Source of the DNA: Neobacillus massiliamazoniensis
GTDB lineage: Bacteria; Bacillota; Bacilli; Bacillales; Cytobacillaceae
Direction of reading: 5' to 3'
DNA: 64,000 bases
NCBI RefSeq assembly: GCF_001048695.1
Contig: NZ_CVRB01000002.1
Coordinates: 868,001-932,000 of the forward strand
The notes under the pieces were generated by a model. That model was not told the DNA's origin, searched no databases, and saw nothing but the letters and a program-made list of their open reading frames with translations. Below are positions 13,236 to 62,951 of this stretch, piece after piece. The first letter of the stretch is position 1, and every line of letters begins with the position of its first letter. A program made the position numbers and the translations under genes.

Positions 13236-13313
13236 AAAACCAGAAAAAAGTTGTTGACGTTTTGCTTGGCTTTCTTTTAAGATAGGTAGGAAAAGAATAC
13301 CCGTACTTTGACG

Positions 13314-13397
13314 GGAGAGGTTCATAGCTGAAACCCTCTATAAAAAACTATGGATACATGATAATTATGCCATGTCCATACGGACGTGGCTTTTTTA
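13314..13397 (+). ncRNA. preQ1-I riboswitch with terminator expression platform
   Basis: The aptamer at 13314-13352 has the P1 stem GAGAGG/CCTCT, a loop starting TTCATAGCT, and the tail CTCTATAAAAAACTA that forms the pseudoknot in class I preQ1 aptamers; this closely matches the B. subtilis queC leader. A strong terminator follows (GCCATGTCC / GGACGTGGC, 13369-13390, then six T). TGGATACATG at 13351-13360 can pair with CATGTCCA of the terminator's left arm as an anti-terminator. preQ1 binding should therefore switch off queF and the precursor transporter downstream. Confidence 0.92.
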
Positions 13398-47437: not shown

Positions 47438-48346
47438 TTAGAGGATTTCGATGTTTAATGAGTTAATCTGGGAAACGAGCAGGTCTTCGAAACTTTGCTG
47501 GGCTTGATAGGTAATTTCTTGAGTACCTACATTGGGATTTGCTTTTTTTGCTTGTTCGACCAAGTCTGAGAGTACTTGGTTGGATAGGATGGTATAACGA
47601 TATTCCTTTTCTTCAAGTGTTTGAAACTTGGCTTCACCGAATTCACCGATTAGTTTTTTAGTAGAATCATATTGAAGATATTGCGTATGGTCTTTATTAA
47701 TAGCATTCTTAATAGCATCTTCATTAGCTTTGTGACCTTTTTGCTCAGCAAGAAGGGCCATTGCACGTATGCGGATGATTTGAGTTAACAGCTGATTTTT
47801 ATCTTTTGCCGATTTTTCTTGTGAATCTAAATAGGCCATTTCTTCCTCTAACTGCTGGCCGCTATAGGTCTTACGGGCATTCTCGCGGTTAATAGCCAAT
47901 TGTAGCTTATTAATTAGCTGATAAAACTGTAAGTCTTCCTTTTTAATCCATTCTCCATTAATGAGAGCAACGCCGTCGGCTTTTTTTACAGTGTAATCAG
48001 TCGTTTTTTCAACTTTTTTTCCGTCCTTTTCAATGGTAAAGGTAATTTGATATTTGCCATCCATCGAAAGCTTCACTTTCCCTAAATACGTTCCTTCTTG
48101 GCCTTCAGTTAATTTCACGCTACTGGTGCCATGATCCATATTAGCCATTGATAGCTCAGCGGAAATCTTAAGACCCTTAACAGGCTTGTTGTTTTCCGTG
48201 ATCTTTATTTCAAAAGGTGAGGCGGAATCTTTTTGAAAATAGAGCGGTTTTGAGACAGAAATTTTATAATCAGGTCCTGAACTGCAACTAGTCAGCACGG
48301 CTACTAGCAACATGAGCAACACAAACAACCCTTTTTTTATCATCAT
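47438..48346 (-). CDS. FixH/YtkA-like lipoprotein with SurA-like C-terminal domain (nos operon)
   Basis: 302 residues. A signal with lipobox VLTSC (Cys21) is followed by a FixH/YtkA-type beta domain (~28-120: SMANMDHGTSSVKLTEGQEGTY), where Met-Ala-Asn-Met-Asp-His resembles a copper-site loop. The C-terminal part (~130-300) is helical and resembles the N-terminal domain of SurA/PrsA-type chaperones (VALINGEWIKKEDLQFY). It overlaps nosF by 4 nt and is the last gene of the nosZ operon. It could carry copper or help fold NosZ outside the membrane; this role is inference. The domain pairing is uncommon. Confidence 0.68.
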   Translation of the reverse strand: MMIKKGLFVLLMLLVAVLTSCSSGPDYKISVSKPLYFQKDSASPFEIKITENNKPVKGLKISAELSMANMDHGTSSVKLTEGQEGTYLGKVKLSMDGKYQITFTIEKDGKKVEKTTDYTVKKADGVALINGEWIKKEDLQFYQLINKLQLAINRENARKTYSGQQLEEEMAYLDSQEKSAKDKNQLLTQIIRIRAMALLAEQKGHKANEDAIKNAINKDHTQYLQYDSTKKLIGEFGEAKFQTLEEKEYRYTILSNQVLSDLVEQAKKANPNVGTQEITYQAQQSFEDLLVSQINSLNIEIL

Positions 48347-49017
48347 TCAGATCCCCCTAATTTTTGAGATTGTAGAAAATCTTCGACTGTGTATTTTTCC
48401 ATTTTTCCATCATTTAAATAGGCCACATGCGTACATACTTGTTTAATTTCATCAAGATGGTGTGAAGAGAGGAGAACGGTTTTGTGATGAAGGGTTTTTA
48501 GCACCTCTAGGATTTCTCTTCTCCCGATTGGGTCAATGCCGCTTGTCGGCTCATCTAGGATAAGAATGCTGGCATCCTGGTAAAGCGTAATGGCCAAACC
48601 AAGTCGCTGCAGCATCCCTTTGGAATACTTTTTCACCTGAAGATCACGGTCGTCCCATAAACGAACCGATTGAAGGGTTTGTTTTATCCGATCGGTGTCA
48701 GGCACCTTTGCCAATGCTTCTGCAAAAAATGTCATGTTTTCAAGGCCTGTTAGCATTGGATAGAGCATGAATTTTTCCGGCAGGTAGGCGATTTCCTTTT
48801 TCCATTCCTCGTTTTTCCTAGTGACTTCGCTTCCGTTTATGGTGATGGTTCCTTGTTTGACTGGAAGCAGTCCGAGGAGACTATTAATAAACGTTGATTT
48901 TCCAGCGCCATTGCGGCCGACAAGGGCACAAATTTCATGCTTTTTGATGTCAAGATTGACCCCGTCTAGTATGGTCTTTTTCCCGAAGGATTGGTATAAA
49001 TTCGTAACCTTAATCAT
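48343..49017 (-). CDS. nosF: NosF-like ABC ATPase (second copy)
   Basis: 224 residues. Walker A GRNGAGKST, signature YSKGMLQR, Walker B ILILDEPTSGIDP and switch SSHHL. Overlaps nosY by 4 nt and the FixH-like gene by 4 nt. A copy of the 13-bp GGTGTCAGGCACC motif lies inside the gene (48694-48706), encoding VPDT in the KVPDTDR stretch, without breaking the frame. It works with NosY/NosD for CuZ assembly. Confidence 0.85.
   Translation of the reverse strand: MIKVTNLYQSFGKKTILDGVNLDIKKHEICALVGRNGAGKSTFINSLLGLLPVKQGTITINGSEVTRKNEEWKKEIAYLPEKFMLYPMLTGLENMTFFAEALAKVPDTDRIKQTLQSVRLWDDRDLQVKKYSKGMLQRLGLAITLYQDASILILDEPTSGIDPIGRREILEVLKTLHHKTVLLSSHHLDEIKQVCTHVAYLNDGKMEKYTVEDFLQSQKLGGSE
48694..48706. 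repeat. 13-bp motif inside nosF
   Basis: Exact GGTGTCAGGCACC within the coding sequence; on the coding strand it reads GGTGCCTGACACC and encodes part of KVPDTD. Confidence 0.75.
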
Positions 49018-49811
49018 TCAAATCCCTCCTTCCGATGGAAAATAACTCCCACACCAGTGGTAACGACCAGCCAAAACGCTAGATTACCAAAAAGGAAGAA
49101 TACTGGTTTCGTCCACATAAATGTTTGCATCAACTTTGACATGTGGCCAAAGGAATAGACGCCCATCCCCGTTTCTAAAAACATCCGTACTGCTTCAAGA
49201 GGGTTTAGAAAATAGGCGATGGAAAACCACTGGACGTTGTCATAGGTGACAGTAGGAAGTAACGATAGTAAAAGAAAGTCGTGCATGAAAAAGAAATAAA
49301 ACCAGATAAAAAGGCAATAGCCGACAATCTGCATTCGAGAACGGCTGAAGCTTCCGATTGCCGCACCCATTTGCAAAAAGATCATTGATAGACAAATAAG
49401 CGAAAATACAAAGAGCAGATAACTTTTGACATCTAATTGAAAATAAAATTTCAGCAAGAGTAAATAGAAGAAAAACCAGACCACGAGCGGCATGAGAACG
49501 ACGGTATTCAAACCAAGGCTTTTCTTAAATAAGAAGCTTGAATAACGTTCATTTTTCGTCAGTAGCATAATCAAGGTTTTCTGTTCCTTCTCCTGAAAGA
49601 TGGAGAATGCTCCGATAAACAGGCAAAGAATCGGGATAAAATAAATAATCGTATCAAATAGGTTAATTAACAAGACAAGAAAGCCTTTATCATAAGAAAG
49701 AACGGAAGAGCGAAACAAAATGCTGATAGAGATGATTACGATAATGCTTAATGACAACCATAATCCTTTTCCTCTTAAATTTTCTTTCCATTCCTTCCAA
49801 ACATAATGCAT
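49014..49811 (-). CDS. nosY: NosY-like ABC permease (second copy)
   Basis: 265 residues with six hydrophobic helices. The FSIFQEKEQKTLIMLLTKNERY stretch is typical of ABC-2/NosY permeases. It starts inside the end of nosD (37-nt overlap) and its stop overlaps nosF, so the three are tightly coupled. Same architecture as the permease at 2569-3381, although sequence similarity by eye is low. Confidence 0.8.
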   Translation of the reverse strand: MHYVWKEWKENLRGKGLWLSLSIIVIISISILFRSSVLSYDKGFLVLLINLFDTIIYFIPILCLFIGAFSIFQEKEQKTLIMLLTKNERYSSFLFKKSLGLNTVVLMPLVVWFFFYLLLLKFYFQLDVKSYLLFVFSLICLSMIFLQMGAAIGSFSRSRMQIVGYCLFIWFYFFFMHDFLLLSLLPTVTYDNVQWFSIAYFLNPLEAVRMFLETGMGVYSFGHMSKLMQTFMWTKPVFFLFGNLAFWLVVTTGVGVIFHRKEGFE

Positions 49812-51112
49812 AGTCGATGTCTCCCTTTAAATAAAATCAGTACAGAAAGAATTCCTAACCCAATCAGGAGGGGATGAATCGTTGGATGCTTCGTCACTAA
49901 TGGATATGAATCACTGAACATGACATCATCATGTTCAAGCAGAGCATTCATTTTTTCATAGATGGCAATTGCTGGGCTCTTTAAAAATAAATTTGTTAAT
50001 TCCTGATTCTCGAGCAATTGATGGAGAGAGGAATGATACGTGACTGGGAAATCGCCAATCCCATCTTGGTTTAAATCAGTGAGCGGGAAGGCACTGCCCC
50101 AATCATTTCCTTTATTATTCTTGCTCCAGGCGTTTCCCTCTCCCTTACCGCCAATGGTAACGGCCGGCAGGTTATTGTCTGTAATTCGGTTTAGAGAAAA
50201 GGTCTGTTTGTTAGAGCTCCCCCATAGTTCAATCCCGATTTGGTTTTGCACGATTTTGTTTTGTAAATAGAGATTTCTCGTTGATTGGTCGATATAAATT
50301 CCCCGCTGGTTCATATAAAACGTATTTTTTTCTATATAGTTGTCATTCGCCTGCATAAGTAAGAGGCCAAATGATTGATTTCCATCGTTAAAAATAAATT
50401 GGTTATTTCGTAGTTTAAGATAATTAGAGTTCATAATGGCGGCCCCGCCTATATTCATCGTAAACGTATTATTCTCAAAAGTGTTTTCGTCAGAATACAT
50501 ATAATGGAGTCCATATCTGGTATTGCTAATTTGATTGCCAAAGCTTCGATTATTATTGGCGTAATCGAAGAACATACCGTCTCGGGTTCCCTCAATTCGA
50601 TTATTTTCTAGAAGGTTATTATTTGCATAGTACACATGGAGGCCGTTTCCTTGGGAAGCAATTTCTCCTTTCCCCAAGCCTCGTATATCATTGTCGCGAA
50701 TTGTATTATACTGCCCCTGGCTTATATAAATACCGTGAAAGGAGTCACGGACGGTTACATGGTCGACCACATTTTCGTTTGAATAAATTTTGATGGCTGC
50801 GTACTCCTCAGCAGTGTCAAGGCTCATGCTGCTGTGGCGAACGGTCAGGTGGCTTAAATGCACATTTGGAGCCTTGATGGAGATAACATTTCCGGTTCCG
50901 TCTCCTTTTATCACGGTTTTATTGGAGCCTATGATCGTTATGCTTTTATCAATGATGATATTGCCCTCATAGGTCTTATTCTTGAGCTTCAAAACCGCTC
51001 CCTCTTTCATGGAGTCGATCATCGATTGAAGGTTTTCGGCTGCCATATTCTTCTCAGGATAGATGAGTAATAATAGAGAAAAAGTTAAAGAGAAGAGCGT
51101 CCATTTTTTCAT
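49775..51112 (-). CDS. nosD: NosD-like periplasmic beta-helix protein (second copy)
   Basis: About 445 residues: signal peptide (3-24), beta-helix repeats with recurrent N-x-I/V-x-x-N-x-F turns (~40-340), and a C-terminal membrane helix (~420-436, LLIGLGILSVLILF). ATG 51112 is preferred: AAGGA lies 9 nt upstream and the start overlaps the previous stop (ATGA). An ATG at 51130 is in frame but less well placed. Functions with NosFY in building the tetranuclear copper site of the NosZ encoded upstream. Confidence 0.85.
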   Translation of the reverse strand: MKKWTLFSLTFSLLLLIYPEKNMAAENLQSMIDSMKEGAVLKLKNKTYEGNIIIDKSITIIGSNKTVIKGDGTGNVISIKAPNVHLSHLTVRHSSMSLDTAEEYAAIKIYSNENVVDHVTVRDSFHGIYISQGQYNTIRDNDIRGLGKGEIASQGNGLHVYYANNNLLENNRIEGTRDGMFFDYANNNRSFGNQISNTRYGLHYMYSDENTFENNTFTMNIGGAAIMNSNYLKLRNNQFIFNDGNQSFGLLLMQANDNYIEKNTFYMNQRGIYIDQSTRNLYLQNKIVQNQIGIELWGSSNKQTFSLNRITDNNLPAVTIGGKGEGNAWSKNNKGNDWGSAFPLTDLNQDGIGDFPVTYHSSLHQLLENQELTNLFLKSPAIAIYEKMNALLEHDDVMFSDSYPLVTKHPTIHPLLIGLGILSVLILFKGRHRLCIMFGRNGKKI

Positions 51113-51675
51113 CTTTTTCGTTCCTTCCATAACGGAATCAGTAATAATACAAAGGCAGCAAGGATGAAATAGGTGCCTAAGCCAAGAAGGCTGTGTGTCG
51201 TAAAATTTGCCACCTGGTTTTGCCCAATAATCGGCGGTACAAATGGTTTAATTTTTATCGCAGCATGTGGGTCTAAATTCGTTCCATATTTATAAAGGGC
51301 GTGGTGGAGGTCGTAGATGCCGAGTAATCCGCCGATTGTAATCAGACTGATTAGACCGTATAGAACCGCTTTATTTCGAATAATCGCCGTTAAGAGGGTG
51401 AGAACAACCAAGCCGATAACTATATATCCAAGATAGGACAGCTCGGGGAAATTTTTTTCACCGAAGTTTGCCATTCCTATATAGTGGTTAAGCCCATTAA
51501 TGATATCTATTTGTCCTTCAAGCTTAGTCGGATACACAATAATATTTAAGCCCTCGGGATATTGAGGGGCATAGAAGCCCATTTTCCACCACGGGAAAAA
51601 CGCGGATACCCCAAATAAAATTGCTGAACATGTGATGAGTAAAGAAGAACCGATCGAAAACTTTTTACTTTTCAA
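51109..51675 (-). CDS. Four-helix membrane protein of the nos operon
   Basis: About 188 residues with four or five hydrophobic segments and a large outside loop between the first two (FFPWWKMGFYAPQYPEGLNIIVYP) plus a later HSLLG segment. It lies between nosZ and nosD, where clade II nos clusters usually have a small integral membrane protein (NosB-like); that name is by position only. The reading frame opens at 51723, but those first codons lie in a dispersed repeat (51698-51810), so a start at TTG 51675 or TTG 51684 downstream of AGAAAGG is more likely. Confidence 0.7.
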   Translation of the reverse strand: MKSKKFSIGSSLLITCSAILFGVSAFFPWWKMGFYAPQYPEGLNIIVYPTKLEGQIDIINGLNHYIGMANFGEKNFPELSYLGYIVIGLVVLTLLTAIIRNKAVLYGLISLITIGGLLGIYDLHHALYKYGTNLDPHAAIKIKPFVPPIIGQNQVANFTTHSLLGLGTYFILAAFVLLLIPLWKERKR

Positions 51676-51697
51676 AATAAACAAGACCTTTCTTAGA

Positions 51698-51810
51698 GAA
51701 GCGAAAGCGCCAGTCTCATCCAAGTCAAGCTGGAGGGTATGACGGTGAAGTCATTTTTTGTGCTTCAAGTCAGGACCGAAGCGATCTCGAGGGCCTGGCG
51801 CTGCAGCTAG
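51698..51810. repeat. Palindromic dispersed element between nosZ and the nos membrane protein
   Basis: About 113 bp bounded by AGCGCCAG (51705) and CTGGCGCT (51795). It contains the blocks GAAGCGAAAGCGCC and CAGGACCGAAGCGATCTCGAGG, known to me as a repeated intergenic sequence in many Bacillaceae genomes. It lies inside the nos operon and supplies the first codons of the longest reading frame of the next gene. Confidence 0.6.
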
Positions 51811-51861
51811 TCATTAGTATAAGTCCAAATAACATAAAGTTAGGGCTAAGGGTATCAACGA

Positions 51862-53733
51862 TTAGTTATTAGGTTTTACCAGCAAGTAACCAGTCATTTC
51901 TTGATGAAGTGCTGAACAGAAATTCGTGCAGTAAATCGGATACGTACCGGCTTTATCTGCGATAAAGTCAATCGTATTGGTCTGCCCTGGCTGAACTTCC
52001 ATGTTGAGATTGTAGCCGTTGATGGCGAATCCATGGGTGATATCTTCATCAAAATCAATATTGGTTAAATGGATAAACACATGATCGCCTTGATTTACAT
52101 CAATTTCGTCAGGCCGTTTCTGCGTATGGTCAAAGGTAAACCTTGAACGTACGGCTGTTCCATATACATGGACTTCATTTCCATTTCTGACGATTTTCGT
52201 ATCCGATTGTTTATAGACAGCAAATGGATTGCTAGGATCTTTCGGATAGACGTTGATGGTATGAATTTTATCGGCCTTAATCATTTGCGCATAGTGCGGT
52301 TCAGGGTTCACAGGAACGGTATCAAGGATGTGCATTTTTGAGCCGCTAATATCGATTAACTGCATCGTTTCCGGGTGGGATGGACCAACAGATAAGAAGT
52401 TATCCTTCGCCATTTTGTTCAGCGAAACAAGGTAATGTCCTTGCGGTGAAGCTGTATCGCCTTCAGCAGCAGCAGAGTGGCCTGGTGCATATTGAACAGG
52501 AACCCGATCGACAACTTCCCCTGTTTTATAATTCCATTTCACGACTTCAGAAGAAATAAACATCGTTGTATAGGCAAAGCCTTTATCATCGAATTGTGTA
52601 TGAAGTGGTCCAAGAGCATTTTCTGGGTTTACTTCTCTTTCCATAACAGATTTGTATTTCAGAATAGGAATCCCGTTTCTTTCTCCAGCAAAATCTTTAT
52701 TTTCGATGGCTTTAAATGCTTTTTCAAATGAAAATACGGTCATCAATGGTGCCAGCTTACCTGAGGCAATAAAGTATTTACCGTCTGGAGAGACATCGAC
52801 ACCATGCGGTGATTTCGCGACAGGCACTAAATAGATTCCACCTTTTTGTTTTTCAGGAAAAATCATTTTCTGGCCGTTCACATCTTCATACTTTCCGTCC
52901 TTCACCATTTGCGCAAGCTCTTTCCAGTTGAACAAAACGATATAGTCACGGTCTGCCTGGGAAGCGTTGATTTCAAGTGTAGTCGTTGCTTCTTCGGTGT
53001 TATAGGATGTTATAACAGCCCAGTCTCCGGATTCTTTTTTACCGGCATCTGACAGGTCATAATTCCATGGTGGAAGAGCAACCTGGTAGGCGATATTTAA
53101 TTTTTCCTTCTTTTCATCAAAGGTTACGGCAGACATGACGCCGCGGTATTTCGTGCTATATTGATCTAATGGCTGATATTCTTGGCCTAGAGGGACAGCA
53201 AATCGTGTTGGTAAAAATAAATACTCTGTATTTTGGGTAACAAATGCGGCACAATGCGGACCGCTTGTGTTCGGTACTTTAATGATATCTTTCGTTGTAA
53301 AGGTTTTAAGGTCGACAACCGCTGCCCGGCTATTCCCTACGTCAGTCGCAAATAAGTATTTTCCGTTATAATTGCCGTTTGTTTCGGAGATTGCTGGGTG
53401 ATGGAGGTCACCCCATGTATAGCCGCCAAGCATTTTTTTTGTTTCGGTATCAAACCCGTATCCAGTTGCCGGGTCAGGAGAAAATACCGGAATCGTGCGA
53501 ATTTCTCTCATTGATGGAACACCATAGACAAATAGCTGCCCTGAGTGCCCGCCCGAAGCGAATAAGTAGTATTCATCTTTTTGCCCATAAGGAACATAAA
53601 CCTTTTCGGCATCGCTTTTTGTGTTGCTTGTTACCGCCTGAGTTGTCTTGTTCGTCCCAAAGTTTCCGAAGGCAATGGTCGCTGCCGCAAACCCAGCAGC
53701 TAAGCCGGCAGCAATTGGAATCCATTTTTTCAT
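51862..53733 (-). CDS. nosZ: Nitrous oxide reductase NosZ
   Basis: 623 residues. The N-terminal Sec-type signal (no twin arginine) is typical of clade II NosZ. A seven-bladed propeller carries CuZ histidines (DLHHP, SGPHCAAF, KSPHGVDVSPDG, LGPLHTQF, APGHSAAAEG, EPHYAQ). The C-terminal cupredoxin domain has the CuA motif CTNFCSALHQEM (about residues 602-613). It reduces N2O to N2 outside the membrane. It lies 15 nt after the cytochrome c gene. All expected copper ligands appear present, so the enzyme should be active. Confidence 0.96.
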   Translation of the reverse strand: MKKWIPIAAGLAAGFAAATIAFGNFGTNKTTQAVTSNTKSDAEKVYVPYGQKDEYYLFASGGHSGQLFVYGVPSMREIRTIPVFSPDPATGYGFDTETKKMLGGYTWGDLHHPAISETNGNYNGKYLFATDVGNSRAAVVDLKTFTTKDIIKVPNTSGPHCAAFVTQNTEYLFLPTRFAVPLGQEYQPLDQYSTKYRGVMSAVTFDEKKEKLNIAYQVALPPWNYDLSDAGKKESGDWAVITSYNTEEATTTLEINASQADRDYIVLFNWKELAQMVKDGKYEDVNGQKMIFPEKQKGGIYLVPVAKSPHGVDVSPDGKYFIASGKLAPLMTVFSFEKAFKAIENKDFAGERNGIPILKYKSVMEREVNPENALGPLHTQFDDKGFAYTTMFISSEVVKWNYKTGEVVDRVPVQYAPGHSAAAEGDTASPQGHYLVSLNKMAKDNFLSVGPSHPETMQLIDISGSKMHILDTVPVNPEPHYAQMIKADKIHTINVYPKDPSNPFAVYKQSDTKIVRNGNEVHVYGTAVRSRFTFDHTQKRPDEIDVNQGDHVFIHLTNIDFDEDITHGFAINGYNLNMEVQPGQTNTIDFIADKAGTYPIYCTNFCSALHQEMTGYLLVKPNN

Positions 53734-53748
53734 ACACTACACCACCTT

Positions 53749-54207
53749 TTATTTTTCAGATGCTTTTTTCAGGATATCCAGTACTTGTTTGCGTTGGTCA
53801 TCTGTTAATGGATTGCTGCCAAGAACGCCTGTCATAACAGCTGAGTTTGGCTTTTTCAAGAACTCCTCGATTGGCATATTGTGTTTGCTTTCAACCTCAA
53901 CATACGCATGGGATAGGTCCGGTCCAACCTGCCCACCATTCAAGCTTAAAGCGGAAACAGAGTGGCAACTGAGGCATCCTCTTTTTGAAAGAATATTGTC
54001 TTGGTCAGCAGCTGTAGTAGCTGCCGTTGTCGCAGCCTTGGAATCGGAGCTTTTGTCTTTGGAATCTTTAGTTGTTGTTTTTTGCTCCGAGGTAGCTGCC
54101 ACTTGATTTTGCGTCCCGGAATGACCCATGATGACATCAAACACTAAGTAACCAAGGCCAAAACCAAGTAAAGCGCTTACAATAAAGCTGATAATGGTTT
54201 TCTTCAT
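53749..54207 (-). CDS. nosC: Membrane-anchored cytochrome c of the nos operon (NosC)
   Basis: 152 residues: one N-terminal membrane anchor (4-25), a Thr/Lys/Ser/Ala-rich flexible linker (30-68), and a small cytochrome c domain with CLSCH (Cys78, Cys81, His82) and a likely distal Met in the second half. First gene of the nosZ operon, a usual place for NosC in Bacillus-type clusters. It would hand electrons to the CuA centre of NosZ. An FNR-like box lies ~70 nt upstream. Confidence 0.9.
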   Translation of the reverse strand: MKKTIISFIVSALLGFGLGYLVFDVIMGHSGTQNQVAATSEQKTTTKDSKDKSSDSKAATTAATTAADQDNILSKRGCLSCHSVSALSLNGGQVGPDLSHAYVEVESKHNMPIEEFLKKPNSAVMTGVLGSNPLTDDQRKQVLDILKKASEK

Positions 54208-55759: not shown

Positions 55760-56500
55760 ATGAATCATAAAGGAAGTCCTGATGAATATCCCATTCCTTT
55801 GGTGTTAAACGGCTATGAGATTGCTGTTTTTCAGCTTACAAAAGCGGATCTCGAGGACTGGACATATGGTTATTTGTTTTCTGAAGGATTTATTCAGGAT
55901 CCAGATGAGATAAAAACGATCCGCATTAATGAAGAAACAGGAAGTATCCACGTTACCCTCCGAACTAATTTTGATGCCGAACAGCTCTTTTCGAAAAAGA
56001 AACACTATACCGCAGGATGCGGCAGGGGTGTAACGTTTTTTTCAATGACAGACGTGAAAAATTTCCAAAAGATATCCTCTGGTAAGACCTACCAACTTAG
56101 TTATCTTTTAAAAAAACGCAGTGAGTTTGCTCAAAATTCGACACTGTACCTTGAAACTGGCGGTATGCATGGGGCCTGTATTATTGATGAAAAAGGAAAT
56201 ATGACCATTCGTGAAGATATCGGCAGGCATAATGCTGTCGATAAGATTATTGGCTATTGTTTACGAAACCGCTTACATCCAAAGCGTTTAATTTTACTTA
56301 CGACCGGCAGGGTTTCCTATGAAATGCTTTCGAAGGCGGCGAAATTTGGCTTTGCTGTGATTGGATCAAGGACAGCTGCTACCAGGCAGGCCATCCAATT
56401 AGCTAAATTTTTACATATAGAGGTAATAGGCTATTTAAGAGGAAAAATGGCTATGATTTATACCTCAGAGGGCCGAGTACAAAACGATATACAAGAATAG
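55760..56500 (+). CDS. fdhD: Formate dehydrogenase accessory sulfurtransferase FdhD
   Basis: 246 residues. Catalytic Cys87 lies in TAGCGRG (the second Cys of the E. coli CxxC is absent here, as in many homologues). Other family features: ETGGMHGACI, REDIGRHNAVDKIIG and TGRVSYEMLSKAAK. It delivers sulfur to the bis-MGD molybdenum cofactor of formate dehydrogenase, encoded directly downstream. First gene of the fdh block. Confidence 0.94.
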   Translation: MNHKGSPDEYPIPLVLNGYEIAVFQLTKADLEDWTYGYLFSEGFIQDPDEIKTIRINEETGSIHVTLRTNFDAEQLFSKKKHYTAGCGRGVTFFSMTDVKNFQKISSGKTYQLSYLLKKRSEFAQNSTLYLETGGMHGACIIDEKGNMTIREDIGRHNAVDKIIGYCLRNRLHPKRLILLTTGRVSYEMLSKAAKFGFAVIGSRTAATRQAIQLAKFLHIEVIGYLRGKMAMIYTSEGRVQNDIQE

Positions 56501-56591
56501 CTCTCCGTAGAGATGCTTTGAAAGGGGGGGATTATTTAGAGAAGAAGATTAGGTGGATAGAGATCAATTCATGATGGGAAGGAGATTAGAG

Positions 56592-59576
56592 ATGGTAGAA
56601 ATGAACCTGAATCGTCGGCAATTCTTAAAGCTTTCGGGCGCGGCCGCTGCTACTTTAGCCGTTGTAGAGCTCGGCTTTAATGAGAAAAAAGCCTATGCCA
56701 CAACAAAAGAATTCAAAATTGCCCAAGCTACTGTAACGCCAACCATTTGCTGCTATTGTGGCGTCGGCTGTGGGATTCTTGTCCACACCAAAAACAACAC
56801 TGTGGTTTATACGGAAGGGGATCCGGATAACCCCATCAACGAAGGAAAGCTTTGCAGCAAAGGGACTACAATCAGACAATTATATACCTCTGAAAAACGT
56901 TTAACAAAACCTCTTTACCGCGCACCCGGCAGCAGTAAATGGGAAGAAAAAGACTGGGACTGGATGCTCGACATGATTGCGAGTCGAACAAAAGAAACTC
57001 GCGATCATTCATTTGTCGAGGTGGAACAGGGCATTACCGTAAATAAAACGGAAAAGATCGCCAGCCTTGGCGGCGCAGCCCTTGATAACGAAGAAACGTA
57101 TTTGCTGTCGAAACTAATGAGAGGGCTTGGTGTCGTTTATTTAGAGCATCAAGCACGGATATGACATAGTTCTACGGTTGCCGGTCTGGCACCCTCATTT
57201 GGTCGTGGAGCAATGACTAACCATTGGAATGATTTGCAGCATACTGATTGTGCATTGATTATGGGCGCAAACCCTGCTGAAAACCATCCTATCAGCTTTA
57301 GATGGTTAACGAAAGCGAAGGAAAACGGAGGAAAAATTGTTTCCGTTGATCCTCGTTTTACAAGAACATCCGCACAGGCTGACATTTATGCACCACTCCG
57401 TTCAGGTACGGATATTGCATTTCTTGGCGGAATGATTAACTATGCGCTGCAAAATAATCTGATTCACAAAGAGTATGTTGCTAAATATACAAATGCTTCT
57501 TTTATTGTGAAAGAGGGCTATGACTTTAAAGACGGCCTCTTCACTGGATATGATGAAACGAAAAGAGCTTATGATAAAACAAAATGGGCATTGGAAGCAA
57601 CAGAAGACGGCAAGCCGGTGAAAGATGAAACATTAGAAAACCCACGAACCGTATTCCAATTAATGAAAAAGCATTATTCGCGTTATGATGTGGATAAGGT
57701 TATCTCCGTAACAGGTACGCCAAAAGAAGATTACTTAAAGGTGTGCGAAGCCTTCTGTTCAACAGGAAAGACTGGAAAATCCGGTACGATTCTGTATGCC
57801 ATGGGCACAACCCAGCATACAGTAGGGACCCAAAATGTTCGTTGCTACGCCATCCTGCAGCTTTTATTAGGAAACATCGGAATTCCTGGCGGTGGTATTA
57901 ACGCTATGCGCGGCGAATCCAATGTTCAAGGCTCAACAGACTTTGGCCTATTGTACGATAACTTAACAGGATATCTCGGTGCGCCAAAAGCAACCGTTCC
58001 TGAGCATGCCACCCTAAAAGGCTTTCTCGATAAAGAAACACCAAAAACGGGCTATTGGAGCAACAAACCAAAATTCGTTGTCAGCTTATTAAAAGCATGG
58101 TATGGAGAAAATGCCACAAAGGACAACGAGTTTGGCTATCAATTTTTACCAAAAGGCAATAAAAACTATTCGCATATTAATCTATTTAATGCTATGTATC
58201 AGGGCCATCTTGACGGGGCTTTTCTATTTGGGACAAACCCGGTCGTCGGCGGACCGAATTCCGGTAAAGAGAAAGAAGCCCTCAGCAAACTAAAGTGGCT
58301 TGTTGCTATTGATCTATGGGAAACCGAAACCTCCTCTTTCTGGCAAAAGGAAGCTGGCAGCAACCCGGCGAATATTAATACCGAGGTATTCCTCCTGCCG
58401 GCATCCGCATCATATGAGAAAGAGGGCAGTGTATCCAATAGTTCACGATGGATGCAATATCGTTGGAAAGCCATTGATTCAAGAGGTGAAGCAAGACCAG
58501 ACCTTGACGTCATTCATGAGCTTGCCTTAAGAATGAAAAAGCTTTATGCCGATAGTACGAAATCAGCTGATAAGCCTATTCAAGCGCTTGATTGGAGCTA
58601 CGGCACAGGTGAGACGCCGGATATCGACCTTATTGCAAAAGAAATCAATGGCTACGATCTCAAAACAGGCAAACTGCTCGCAGGCTTTGGCTCCTTATTA
58701 GATGACGGAACAACCTCGAGCGGTAACTGGATTTACTCCGGCTTCTATCCGGCAGAAGGGAAAAACCTATCAAAACGCCGTGATAACAAGGATACCGGCA
58801 ATGCCAACTACTTAAACTGGTCTTATGCTTGGCCAATGAACCGCCGGATTCTTTACAACCGAGCTTCAGCAGATCCAAGCGGCCAGCCATGGAGCAAGGA
58901 AAAAGCAGTCATTTGGTGGGATGCCATTCAAAAGAAATGGGTAGGTAATGATGTCCCTGACTTTAAAGCCGTTACAGCACCTACCGAGCCGGACGGCACA
59001 GGGCCATTTATCATGAACAAAGACGGAGTAGGCTTACTATTTGCGCCAACTCTAAATGACGGGCCGTTCCCTGAACATTATGAACCGTTTGAAAGCCCTG
59101 TTCCGAATGTTTTTTCAAGTCAGCAAATGAACCCTACGACTGTTATTATTCAAGGGGACTTTAATAAAAAAGGTGAAAAGAAAGACTTCCCGATTGTAGC
59201 GACCAACTATCGAGTAAGCGAACACTGGCAGTCGGGCTCGATGACACGAAACCAAGAATGGCTTTCAGAGCTTGCCGGCCACATGTTTGTTGAAATGAGT
59301 GAGGAGTTAGCACAAGAAAAGGGAATCAAAAATAAAGACATGGTCATTGTCAGCTCAGCGCGCGGTGAAATTAAAGCTTATGCAATGGTCACAAAACGCT
59401 TTAAGCCGTTTACCATTCAAGGCAAAAAAGTCCATCAAATTGGGATGCCATGGCATTTTGGCTTTAAGGGCTTTGCAACCGGTGATACAGCAAACAGGCT
59501 GACACCGCATATTGGGGATGCAAATACAACAATTCCTGAATACAAGGCATTCCTCTGTAACGTAAGGAGGGCTTAA
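56592..59576 (+). CDS. fdnG: Formate dehydrogenase-N/O type alpha subunit, selenoprotein (TGA = Sec191)
   Basis: About 994 residues when the in-frame TGA at 57162-57164 is read as selenocysteine. Flanking residues match FDH: QARI-Sec-HSSTVAGLAP followed by FGRGAMTNHW, as in E. coli FdnG around its Sec. Before it come a twin-arginine signal (NRRQFLKLSG) and a [4Fe-4S] motif (CCYCGVGCG, LCSKG); after it, molybdopterin-dinucleotide binding domains up to the end. ATG 56592 is 7 nt after GGGAAGGAG; GTG 56553 is weaker. It oxidises formate to CO2 outside the membrane and passes electrons to the beta and gamma subunits. A conventional caller would split it in two. Confidence 0.95.
57162..57194 (+). 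promoter_or_regulatory. Selenocysteine codon and bacterial SECIS hairpin
   Basis: Eleven bases after TGA begins GGTTGCC-GGTCT-GGCACC (57176-57193): a short stem with one unpaired T and apical loop GGTCT. The spacing, bulged U and GGUCU loop are the same as in the E. coli fdhF SECIS recognised by SelB, although the stem bases differ slightly. It lies within the coding sequence. Confidence 0.92.
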
Positions 59577-59578
59577 GG

Positions 59579-60406
59579 ATGACGGAATATGTGAAATATG
59601 TAGATGTTACCAAATGTGACGGCTGTCGTGCTTGTATGGTGGCATGCAAAAACTGGAATGACCTGCCGGCGGAGAATACCGAATTCCTCGGCAGTGTCCA
59701 ATCACATAAAAAAGTAACTGCAGATACGTGGAATGTGCTGCAATATATTGAGCATGAGAATGGCAAGGGCAATCTTGAATATCTTTTCCGCCATTCCTCC
59801 TGCTTCCATTGCCATGATGCTGCTTGTGAAAAGGTATGCCCTGAAGACGCCATCAGTCACACGAAATATGGCTCTGTAGTTATTGATCACGACAAATGCA
59901 TTGGCTGCGGCTATTGCGTACAAAACTGTCCGTTTGAAGTTATTTCCTTAAAGGAATACAAAGATAAAAACGGAAGCACGTACCGGAAATCACAAAAGTG
60001 CACATTGTGTACCGACCGCCTCGATGAAGGTTTACAGCCGGCCTGTGTCACCACCTGCCATACAGGGACGATGGAGTTCGGCGACAAAACGGCGATGATC
60101 AATAAGGCCGAGCAGCGTGTACGGGAAATCAAGAGTCGTTTCCCTAACGCCCAGGTTTATAATCCATCAGGTGTCGGCGGTACGAATACTATTTATGTTT
60201 TAGCGGAAAAACCATCTGTTTATGGTCTGCCGGAAAGCCCTAAAGTCCCAACATCGGCGGTTGCTTGGAAGGATTATGCCCAACCAATCGGCAAACTGAT
60301 GCTGGGGGCCACAACAATGGCTGTTGTCGGTGCTTTTGTAACGAACAGGCTTTTCAATAAAGCAGGAAAAGGCGAGACGCAAGACGGGGGTGGAAGCCAT
60401 GAGTAA
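59579..60406 (+). CDS. fdnH: Formate dehydrogenase beta subunit (four [4Fe-4S] ferredoxin-like)
   Basis: 275 residues. Four cysteine clusters: CDGCRACMVAC, CFHCHDAACEKVCP, CIGCGYCVQNCP and CTLCTDRLDEGLQPACVTTC. A C-terminal membrane helix (~245-262, PIGKLMLGATTMAVVGAFVTNRLF) anchors it. It carries electrons from the alpha subunit to the cytochrome b gamma subunit. It starts 2 nt after the alpha stop with a GGAGG site and overlaps the gamma gene. Confidence 0.94.
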   Translation: MTEYVKYVDVTKCDGCRACMVACKNWNDLPAENTEFLGSVQSHKKVTADTWNVLQYIEHENGKGNLEYLFRHSSCFHCHDAACEKVCPEDAISHTKYGSVVIDHDKCIGCGYCVQNCPFEVISLKEYKDKNGSTYRKSQKCTLCTDRLDEGLQPACVTTCHTGTMEFGDKTAMINKAEQRVREIKSRFPNAQVYNPSGVGGTNTIYVLAEKPSVYGLPESPKVPTSAVAWKDYAQPIGKLMLGATTMAVVGAFVTNRLFNKAGKGETQDGGGSHE

Positions 60407-61103
60407 TCAGAAAAAACCAGATGTGCAAGTAAGACGTTTTTCGAAAGCGTTCGTTATCGCCCATGCTGTAAATGCGTTTTCTTTCTTTGCTCTCTACATT
60501 ACGGCTTTGCCAATGTACGCCCATTCCTTTAACTGGCTTTATACGGTTCTTGGCGGCCCAGCGAATGCTCGCTTGCTTCACCGCATCTTTGCCGTTATGT
60601 TCGTCACCCCAACGATTATCTTTTTGATTTTTGACCGTAAAGGCTTCTTTAATTGGATGAAAGAACTTGTTACATGGAAAAAAAGAGATCTTCAATTTTT
60701 TACCGAATTTGTGAAAGAATTGTTTGGTTTAAACTTTAAGCATGTAAGGCAAACATTTTTTAATGCCGGTGAAAAAATTAACTCAATCCTCCAGATTTTG
60801 TGTGCCATTATCATTATCTGTTCAGGATTCATCATGTGGTTTCCGCAATTTTTCCCAAGGGCTGTTTTTCAGTGGGGCTACTTCTTACATGACTTCGGCT
60901 TTGGCCTTGCGATTGCCGTCATTGTCGGCCACATTTACTTGAGCGTTGTTCATAAAAATTCAAGACCAGGCTATTCTGGAGTGGTAACGGGAAAGGTTCC
61001 TGCATGGTGGGCAAAGGATCACTATACCGACTGGTATGAAGAAGAAGTCAAAAAAGGCAACTTCCCAAAATTGGATGATCCGAAAAAGAAGAAGCATGCT
61101 TAA
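60399..61103 (+). CDS. fdnI: Formate dehydrogenase gamma subunit (cytochrome b556)
   Basis: About 234 residues with four membrane helices and histidines in helices (FVIAHAVNAFSFF, ARLLHRIF, FLHDFGFGLAIAVIVGHIYLSV) suited to bind two b hemes. It passes electrons to the quinone pool. The start overlaps the beta stop (ATGAGTAA). The C-terminal cytoplasmic tail ends KKKKHA. Followed by a 21-bp tandem array. Confidence 0.92.
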   Translation: MSNQKKPDVQVRRFSKAFVIAHAVNAFSFFALYITALPMYAHSFNWLYTVLGGPANARLLHRIFAVMFVTPTIIFLIFDRKGFFNWMKELVTWKKRDLQFFTEFVKELFGLNFKHVRQTFFNAGEKINSILQILCAIIIICSGFIMWFPQFFPRAVFQWGYFLHDFGFGLAIAVIVGHIYLSVVHKNSRPGYSGVVTGKVPAWWAKDHYTDWYEEEVKKGNFPKLDDPKKKKHA

Positions 61104-61527: not shown

Positions 61528-62340
61528 ATGGTGAAAAAGTCTGTTGTGAACAAAGAATATCAAAATTTGAATAAAACAATTGTTGATTTACAAGAAAAAT
61601 GGAAGAATAGTTTACGAGAAGAGGCAGTTCTGCCGAAAGTGGATAAGGCGGCGCTAGATGCAGGGGTGCCGGTTATCGCTTTAACGGATTTTCATTTTGA
61701 TATTTCTCTATTTTTACAGTGGATAGAGGAAGTTGTGGAAGCGATTATCGCCTCAAATGGCGAATTAGCAGTAAAGCTGGACAAGCTTTCCGACATCATG
61801 AACGAGGAAGTGGGACTGCGCTGGATCCAGGAAGCACTCGCCTTCAATCAAGCCTATTTTACAGAATTTGCTGAAGAAAAAGACCTTGAAGAATGGATTC
61901 CCTCATATTTCGCGGAAACAGCTGTCCGGCCATATTTGCAGCTTTTAGCCGAAAGCGTCCAAGACCGGATTGAATATGCGGTTCCGGATGAAGGCTGTCC
62001 TGTTTGTGGTGAGCCGGTAAGGCTGGCAGCGCTTGAGGAGGAAGGGAAAAAGGTGGTCCATTGCCCTCGCTGTCTGGCTCATTGGCAAGGGAAACGCTTA
62101 GAATGCGACCATTGCGGCAATGATGACCATCAAAAATTAAAGTTCTTGACCATTGAAGGAGATGCCATTTCACAAATCCAAGTTTGCGAGGTATGTAACG
62201 GATATATGAAAGTAATCGATACGAGGCAATATATTACAAAGCCATCAGCAGCACAGATCGACTTAGACACCATTCATTTGGACTTTGTAGCCCAGCAAAA
62301 TGGTTATCGGGCAGTTGGCGAGAAAAAAATAACGAATTAA
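61528..62340 (+). CDS. fdhE: Formate dehydrogenase accessory protein FdhE
   Basis: 270 residues. The C-terminal half has four CxxC zinc/iron-ribbon motifs (CPVC, CPRC, CDHC, CEVC) typical of FdhE, which acts in late maturation of membrane formate dehydrogenases. A helical N-terminal half precedes them. ATG 61528 follows GAGGTG. It is separated from the gamma gene by the tandem array but has no intervening terminator, so co-transcription is possible. Confidence 0.9.
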   Translation: MVKKSVVNKEYQNLNKTIVDLQEKWKNSLREEAVLPKVDKAALDAGVPVIALTDFHFDISLFLQWIEEVVEAIIASNGELAVKLDKLSDIMNEEVGLRWIQEALAFNQAYFTEFAEEKDLEEWIPSYFAETAVRPYLQLLAESVQDRIEYAVPDEGCPVCGEPVRLAALEEEGKKVVHCPRCLAHWQGKRLECDHCGNDDHQKLKFLTIEGDAISQIQVCEVCNGYMKVIDTRQYITKPSAAQIDLDTIHLDFVAQQNGYRAVGEKKITN

Positions 62341-62351
62341 GAGGTGGAATC

Positions 62352-62951
62352 ATGAAGGCGGCTGCAATTATTTTATCCGGCGGGAAATCGAGCAGAATGG
62401 GCACGAATAAAGCCCTCCTGAAAATTAATGAGAAAACCAATATTGAGAGAATTGTAGATAGGTTAAAGCCGCTTTTTGATGAAATGATCCTAGTTACAAA
62501 TAATCCAAAGCAATATGAATTTTTGGAATTGAAAACGGTGACTGATCATTTTCCCGGCATGGGTCCGCTTGCAGGTGTGCATGCTGGGCTCGAGGCCAGT
62601 TCCTATGAAACCAATTTTATCGTTGCCTGCGATATGCCGTTTGTTTTAGGGGAACTAGCCCGGGCCCTAGTGGACAAGAGCAGTGGTTATGATGCAGTGA
62701 TTCCAGTCATTTTTGGAAAACAGCATCCTTTATTTGCAGTTTTCCAAAAAAGGCTTGTCCCAACTGTCGAGCAGTGCCTAAAGGAAGAGCGACTAAGGGT
62801 GAAGAATTTGCTTGATCAGCTACATGTCCGTTACGTTACGGAAAATGACTTGACGGAGTTTGACCTTGCCCGTGTTTTTTTCAACATGAATCACCCAAAT
62901 GAGTACGAAGATGCTTTAATGTGGGCCAAGAATGAGCAAGAGGGGAAGTAA
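62352..62951 (+). CDS. mobA: Molybdenum cofactor guanylyltransferase MobA
   Basis: 199 residues. The nucleotidyltransferase motif LSGGKSSRMGTNKALL, VTDHFPGMGPLAG and VACDMPFV are diagnostic. It attaches GMP to molybdopterin to make MGD, the cofactor form formate dehydrogenase needs. Its start is 11 nt after fdhE. Confidence 0.94.
   Translation: MKAAAIILSGGKSSRMGTNKALLKINEKTNIERIVDRLKPLFDEMILVTNNPKQYEFLELKTVTDHFPGMGPLAGVHAGLEASSYETNFIVACDMPFVLGELARALVDKSSGYDAVIPVIFGKQHPLFAVFQKRLVPTVEQCLKEERLRVKNLLDQLHVRYVTENDLTEFDLARVFFNMNHPNEYEDALMWAKNEQEGK

Follow-up and report, generated by a model that had tools for sequence, protein, structure and literature searches.

Does a formate dehydrogenase (FDH) gene whose reading frame is crossed by a stop codon encode a broken enzyme or a selenoprotein? 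The question is raised by a locus at positions 56592–59576 on the forward strand of a 64,000-nucleotide stretch of the Neobacillus massiliamazoniensis genome (assembly GCF_001048695.1, contig NZ_CVRB01000002.1, positions 868,001 to 932,000), the whole of which is hereafter called the window. An earlier note on this DNA had proposed that the locus encodes a selenocysteine (Sec) FDH with a hairpin resembling a Sec insertion sequence (SECIS), a proposal borne out at the level of sequence. With a probability of about 97%, we consider 56592–59576 to be a working selenoprotein gene that would specify the catalytic subunit of a membrane-bound respiratory FDH exported by the twin-arginine translocation (Tat) system. 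Judged in this way, it is a further case of an enzyme and a recoding mechanism that are both already known.

The frame of the alpha subunit runs from the ATG at 56592 to the TAA at 59574–59576 and comprises 994 residues, with a single in-frame TGA (57162–57164) at residue 191. Translation confirmed that the frame passes through this TGA at the FDH active site, where the predicted Sec lies in the context HQARI-U-HSSTVAGLAP. The 994-residue product matches TIGR01553, the family of formate dehydrogenase-N (FDH-N) alpha subunits, with 1303.6 bits (cut-off 814.2) over residues 6–992, and Pfam recognizes a Tat signal (TAT_signal, 26.2 bits against a cut-off of 22.7) together with Fe4S4, molybdopterin and dinucleotide-binding domains. 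A mechanical list of open reading frames holds instead the fragments 56553–57164 and 57213–59576, just as the earlier note had expected of a routine annotation, which would report two truncated proteins.

To place the TGA in context, we used the best 80 of 574 stretches encoding a relative of the alpha subunit (583 matched), obtained by a protein scan of genome contigs. By name these are mostly Bacillaceae, with other families represented as well (e.g., Ammoniphilus of the Paenibacillaceae), and the closest are mostly from Neobacillus, at 88–89% identity, with N. vireti and N. bataviensis represented in the set. The codon at the TGA site is TGA in 79 of the 80 and TGC in one (L132). A whole-genome collection of 47 loci, which includes the window gene (L030) and overlaps the first, gave 44 with TGA, two paralogues with Cys (L067 and L069) and one (L078) that the motif did not match; the TGC locus L132, whose contig matches that of L067 in length (4302), is in all likelihood that gene again. 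The catalytic position thus carries a conserved TGA alongside Cys homologues, the pattern expected of a selenoprotein.

Bacterial SECIS elements are hairpins that follow the TGA shortly and present a small G-bearing loop. Eleven bases past the TGA in the alpha gene lies a putative SECIS hairpin, GGTTGCCGGTCTGGCACC (57176–57193), with a bulged T and the loop GGTCT at 57183–57187; the earlier description of this element was exact, and the hairpin resembles that of Escherichia coli fdhF. Frozen synonymous sites, the position of the hairpin and the Cys genes speak for it more than folding energy or covariation do. Across 80 TGA genes (window gene included), at least 97% of the sequences agree on 202 residues whose codons are four- or six-fold degenerate, and the restriction to such residues controls for constraint on the protein. 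Only seven of the 202 are frozen, in that one codon is used in at least 98% of sequences, and five of these seven are the consecutive hairpin codons ACG GTT GCC GGT CTG, positions +4 to +8 after the TGA, which are identical in 80 of 80 genes. The remaining two are AGG AGG (59565–59570, 78/78 each), inside the end of the alpha gene, where AGGAGG is the likely ribosome-binding site of the beta gene. A hairpin shortly after the TGA and conserved at synonymous sites is therefore what 57176–57193 presents. In the Cys paralogues L067 and L069 the hairpin codons are mostly changed, and their genomes (G058 and G056) each contain a second copy that retains both TGA and hairpin. The hairpin also covaries in part: in 68 distinct FDH sequences, 22 of them from genomes of the phylum outside the family, standard pairs occupy 96.6% of pair cells, a figure reached by none of 500 shuffles and by no slid version (at most 48.3%), and column pair 18–30 is U-A in 52 sequences, U-G in six, C-G in five and unpaired in five.

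Recoding of this kind demands dedicated machinery, and the earlier note had argued that selA, selB, selC and selD must exist elsewhere. A search of the 5.60-Mb assembly (10 contigs) found all four: a tRNA-Sec with anticodon TCA (RF01852, 65.4 bits, cut-off 47), SelB (351 bits, cut-off 242), SelA (555 bits, cut-off 268) and SelD (405 bits, cut-off 125), the last with an in-frame TGA of its own. SelA and SelD lie approximately 1 kb apart on contig 3, while SelB and tRNA-Sec are separated by approximately 750 kb on contig 1. SelB and SelC are named as signatures of the Sec-decoding trait in the abstract of PMC1273633, and the genome holds both, with SelA and SelD. Two findings had been named in advance as damaging to the Sec proposal, namely a genome without selB or selC and Cys-bearing relatives that expose the TGA as an error; neither emerged, as the machinery is present and 79 of 80 relatives keep TGA. 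From these data we infer that, during translation, a SelB-GTP-Sec-tRNA(Sec) complex would bind the hairpin 11 nucleotides past the UGA, and that Sec, made on tRNA-Sec by SelA and SelD, would be inserted at the molybdenum/tungsten ligand position of the alpha subunit to give an active enzyme.

The tRNA-Sec gene also harbors a siphovirus-like prophage of approximately 44 kb (contig 1, 164838–208982; loci L022, L061, L224 and L225) that encodes an integrase, an anti-repressor, DnaC, terminase, portal, capsid and tape measure proteins. It is flanked by 66-base repeats with two differences that begin at the anticodon loop of the tRNA and reach its 3' end, and the displaced tRNA-Sec copy would have an acceptor-stem mismatch. 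A 37-base attachment-site pattern matched the tRNA gene alone; a k-mer comparison then revealed the second copy.

The earlier note had further presumed that selenoproteins are uncommon in Bacillaceae, a premise that did not survive an evenly drawn set of 151 family genomes (our own included), analyzed with 14 control genomes. A tRNA-Sec exceeds the Rfam cut-off in 130 of the 151, and ARAGORN identified a tRNA-Sec with TCA in all 22 fetched neighborhoods from 20 other genomes. FDH-N is matched (E ≤1e-100) in 93 of the 151, each with at least one TGA-bearing match, although one of the 93 (G022) is counted through a 48% identical paralogue alone. A second type of enzyme, FdhF-type FDH, is matched (E ≤1e-250) in 88 genomes, with TGA in all 88 matches; the position of the TGA was confirmed in 26 of 30 fetched loci, the other four being unmatched by the motif used. 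One or the other Sec FDH type occurs in 100 genomes, 98 of which have a tRNA-Sec over the cut-off, and the two that do not are assemblies 85% and 66% complete. Conversely, among the 21 genomes with no tRNA-Sec over the cut-off, 19 have either no SelD match or a SelD without TGA, and the other two are the same incomplete assemblies. One genome (G067, 80% complete) has a tRNA-Sec and no SelD match. The tRNA-Sec, FDH-N and FdhF counts leave the supposed rarity unsupported for the family; the Sec trait is common to this Bacillaceae family. In a sample of the whole phylum, FDH-N (E ≤1e-150) was found in 98 of 398 genomes, two of them from the same family.

Some of these genes depart from the common form. 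A diverged FDH-N paralogue in G022 and G056 (L072 and L077; 47–48% identity) keeps the TGA and has a different hairpin with AGTTT. Extra in-frame TAG or TAA codons in the FDH genes of G145, G131, G122 and G033 were rejected: in all four the Met is the first codon of the open frame, which places the additional stop immediately 5' of the gene. A literature search that missed most subscription journals found nothing on selenocysteine in Neobacillus and, for Sec FDH combined with Bacillaceae, Moorella only. PMC3475470, on denitrifying Bacillus, mentions formate dehydrogenase, and the string 'selen' occurs in it three times, each within the name selenitireducens; mentions of Bacill- sought in PMC13188914, PMC5330540 and PMC12013277 were not found.

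Several observations weigh against reading 56592–59576 as a working selenoprotein gene with a SECIS. The Cys paralogues also differ in the amino acids of the hairpin region (VPGLAT and VPGLSP), so that synonymous change does not account for all of the hairpin's loss in them; L067, moreover, retains ACG GTT and GGT. Just two pairs of the FDH hairpin have changed on both sides, a count matched by 43 of 500 shuffles; most of its pairs hardly vary and hence provide little evidence on pairing. An alternative bulge register pairs in 97.8% of cells with one both-sides change, which leaves either T of GGTT as a candidate for the bulge, and the RNAalifold consensus adopts this alternative register with no both-sides change. 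A 48-nucleotide RNA gave a z of 0.52 against dinucleotide shuffles, 134 of 200 being at least as stable, so folding energy lends no support. The tRNA-Sec model is permissive, matching 151 of 151 family genomes and 14 of 14 controls at E ≤0.001 and passing its cut-off in five of the 14 controls, the five being unspecified. The beta and gamma subunits encoded downstream score under their curated cut-offs, their best families being FDH beta and gamma. Finally, FDH-N genes occur in two pieces in G130, G133 and G084, as broken genes or assembly faults.

Three other explanations were weighed against these data, and the one that fares best, itself very improbable, is that the gene and its SECIS were recently imported from enterobacteria. 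Such an event would fit the likeness of the hairpin to that of E. coli fdhF in bulged U and GGUCU. Against it, the alpha subunit scores 1064 bits with PDB entry 1h0h, which we take to be a Desulfovibrio enzyme, and 977 bits with 1kqf, presumably E. coli FdnG. For SelB, the match to the SelB of 4zu9 extends over the full length and gives 235 bits, compared with 196 bits over residues 11–360 for the match to the E. coli protein, to which the Neobacillus SelB is 37% identical over 356 residues with no extended match further on. Moreover, the best-80 relatives bear Bacillus-type or other Bacillota names, bar one record without a taxonomy entry. A sample limited to the phylum cannot by itself decide the origin; on the similarity scores and names together, the Sec FDH trait shows little sign of having come recently from enterobacteria. 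We regard as more improbable still a pseudogene or sequencing error, in which the TGA would be a nonsense mutation or a miscalled base in a Cys enzyme. The two fragments in the plain list of frames and the genes in pieces in G130, G133 and G084 are what this explanation would predict, but 79 of 80 related loci share TGA at this codon and continue uninterrupted to either side of it, and SelA, SelB, SelD and tRNA-Sec are all encoded in the genome. A genome-wide reading of UGA as sense, for instance as Trp, would account for a frame that is open when TGA is read but deserves almost no credence, given that TGA terminates 8 of 45 larger frames picked from the window, that the Sec machinery is present and that the two TGA-free paralogues carry Cys rather than Trp.

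With the selenoprotein reading preferred, the codon directly 5' of the TGA also calls for comment. This isoleucine codon, ATA at 57159–57161, is frozen: all 79 sequences that encode Ile at this site use ATA, in a set of 80 genes where ATA is rare overall (359 of 3966 Ile codons) and where only 2 to 13 of approximately 80 sequences use it at each of nine other conserved Ile sites. In the two Cys paralogues the codon before Cys is ATC and ATT. A general role for ATA before Sec codons was rejected, since the codon before the TGA varies among the phylum genes (ATC, ATT, CTC, TTG, GTC or ATA) and is GGT or GGC in SelD and ACN in FdhF.

Further candidate selenoprotein genes also came to light. A covariance model of the FDH hairpin was run on 38 genomes, consisting of our own and 37 that have a tRNA-Sec over the cut-off and no FDH-N match, and gave matches at E ≤1 in nine. 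In our own genome it recovered the window gene and a locus on contig 4 (E 5.9e-4), a candidate FdhF-type Sec FDH (contig 4, 74361–76409, reverse strand; also represented by L236, L240 and L242) that scores 790 bits with TIGR01591 (cut-off 666). This candidate has 683 residues, its start not being fixed, and carries the hairpin GTTGCCGGTCTGGCAAC past the TGA. Five weak matches (L234, L235 and L237–L239; E 0.07–0.75) besides the FDH-N and FdhF-type genes were set aside; the two read on the matched strand, L234 and L235, have no TGA there.

Beside selD lies a candidate gene for an Rdx/SelW-like protein with a CxxU motif, found among the TGA-spanning frames listed for 20 fetched stretches and two of our own. 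It is divergent from selD (contig 3, 679199–679435, reverse strand; L060, 9197–9436) and encodes 79 residues that match Pfam Rdx with 76.7 bits (cut-off 22.6). Matches at E ≤1e-10 occur in 118 of the 151 family genomes, with TGA in 117 and absent from the match in G122, and the TGA is in place in 30 of 30 fetched loci. Thirty-two genomes have a tRNA-Sec over the cut-off and neither FDH, and 30 of these have the Rdx/SelW-like gene. In G021 and G101 we observed a tRNA-Sec over the cut-off and a TGA-bearing SelD, with no FDH or Rdx/SelW-like match at the thresholds used; these two genomes may carry other selenoproteins.

The selD gene itself (contig 3, 679511–680623, forward strand; L060) has a covarying hairpin approximately 30 bases past its in-frame TGA. 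In 38 sequences this stem, the second of two hairpins, is 98.9% paired with eight both-sides changes, and none of 500 shuffles was as high on either measure, although the number of pairs with such changes, two, was reached by 103 of 500. A first SelD hairpin (GGTCC-TGA-GGACC) is 95.3% paired with two both-sides changes, and the second fits better as a SECIS, the first being a weaker candidate. The Rdx/SelW-like stem, in 29 sequences, is 99.3% paired with three both-sides changes (equalled on one or the other measure by 3 of 500 shuffles); these changes fall in one pair, a count that 240 of 500 shuffles also reached. Both stems beat their slid versions on cells paired. The loops in our genome are GGUCU for FDH-N and FdhF and AGUUU for SelD and Rdx/SelW-like, the outer A and U of the latter being able to pair and leave a GUU triloop, as SelD was counted. 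Relatives show AGUGU, AGUAU, GGUAC and GGUUC in SelD, and GGUCU and AGGUU in Rdx/SelW-like. A single SelB would presumably read all four hairpins.

Four propositions follow from this survey, to which we assign, taken jointly, roughly even odds. The family would be a Sec-using one with a compact selenoproteome of SelD, Rdx/SelW-like, FDH-N and FdhF. A single SelB would recognize a shared loop code on four stems unrelated to one another, namely GGUCU or AGUUU in our genome and R-G-U/G-N-Y in the majority of the relatives read. Second to SelD in spread, the Rdx/SelW-like gene rather than FDH would be what most widely maintains the trait. Lastly, the AUA before the FDH-N Sec codon would be under selection, perhaps because it favors insertion over release. 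FdhA, SelW-like and SelD belong to the known selenoprotein families of bacteria; PMC1794560 lists the latter two and counts, as of 2006, three selenoprotein families in Bacillales. The main interest lies in the family-wide selenoproteome more than in the FDH gene itself. Relatives provide TGA-free homologues for FDH-N, SelD and Rdx/SelW-like, the replacing residue having been read, as Cys, for FDH-N only. Four predicted selenoprotein genes in one Gram-positive genome would offer a convenient system for probing SelB recognition, and all four would be split by annotation software that treats every TGA as a stop.

The genes around the alpha gene are consecutive and on the same strand, in the order fdhD, alpha, beta, gamma, fdhE-like and mobA-like. 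The first encodes the FDH accessory sulfurtransferase (fdhD, 55760–56500; TIGR00129, 165.3 bits, cut-off 140.9). Products of the next four neighbors fall under their NCBIfam cut-offs, and are therefore named by their best-scoring family and by gene order: the iron-sulphur beta subunit (59579–60406; TIGR01582, 229.3 bits, cut-off 334.7), the cytochrome b gamma subunit (60390–61103; TIGR01583, 94.0 bits, cut-off 115.85), an fdhE-like maturation protein (61528–62340; TIGR01562, 52.5 bits, cut-off 187.65, with Pfam FdhE_C at 28.0, cut-off 27) and a mobA-like molybdenum cofactor guanylyltransferase (62352–62951; TIGR02665, 117.3 bits, cut-off 151.85), for which every family in the match list scores under its own cut-off. 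Adjoining the FDH region is a nitrous oxide reductase cluster (47438–54207) with a NosZ of the Sec-exported type (Sec here being the export route), NosD, an ABC transporter ATPase and a possible cytochrome c. Elsewhere in the window, a PreQ1 riboswitch lies at 13311–13357 (41.5 bits).

Comparison with known systems qualifies the earlier description of the hairpin as near-enterobacterial. The resemblance to the E. coli fdhF SECIS is real in that GGUU...GGUCU...ACC with a bulged U is common to both, but the label misleads. E. coli fdhF encodes a different, soluble FDH, whereas the Neobacillus hairpin sits in an FDH-N gene; a related hairpin, likewise with GGUCU, occurs in our own FdhF-type gene. 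The E. coli counterparts of the alpha subunit are FdnG and FdoG, which share its enzyme type, TGA position and hairpin codons, and their hairpin is GGUAGCAAGUCUUGCUCC compared with GGUUGCCGGUCUGGCACC in Neobacillus, the fdnG and fdoG loop being AAGUCUU. The core of the hairpin is, moreover, phylum-wide. In 28 loci fetched from outside the family, all from the phylum-limited sample, the Sec FDHs are 59–65% identical to the Neobacillus alpha subunit, and GGTCTGG is present in 24 of the 26 that were readable (L218 and L222 differ; L219 and L221 gave no motif). As for the smaller proteins, the SelW-like (Rdx) and SelD selenoproteins of bacteria likewise have CxxU in Rdx and TGA in SelD, and in this respect the proteins described here are nothing unusual. 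What sets the Rdx/SelW-like protein apart from known SelW-like selenoproteins, and was unexpected, is its spread over 118 of the 151 family genomes.

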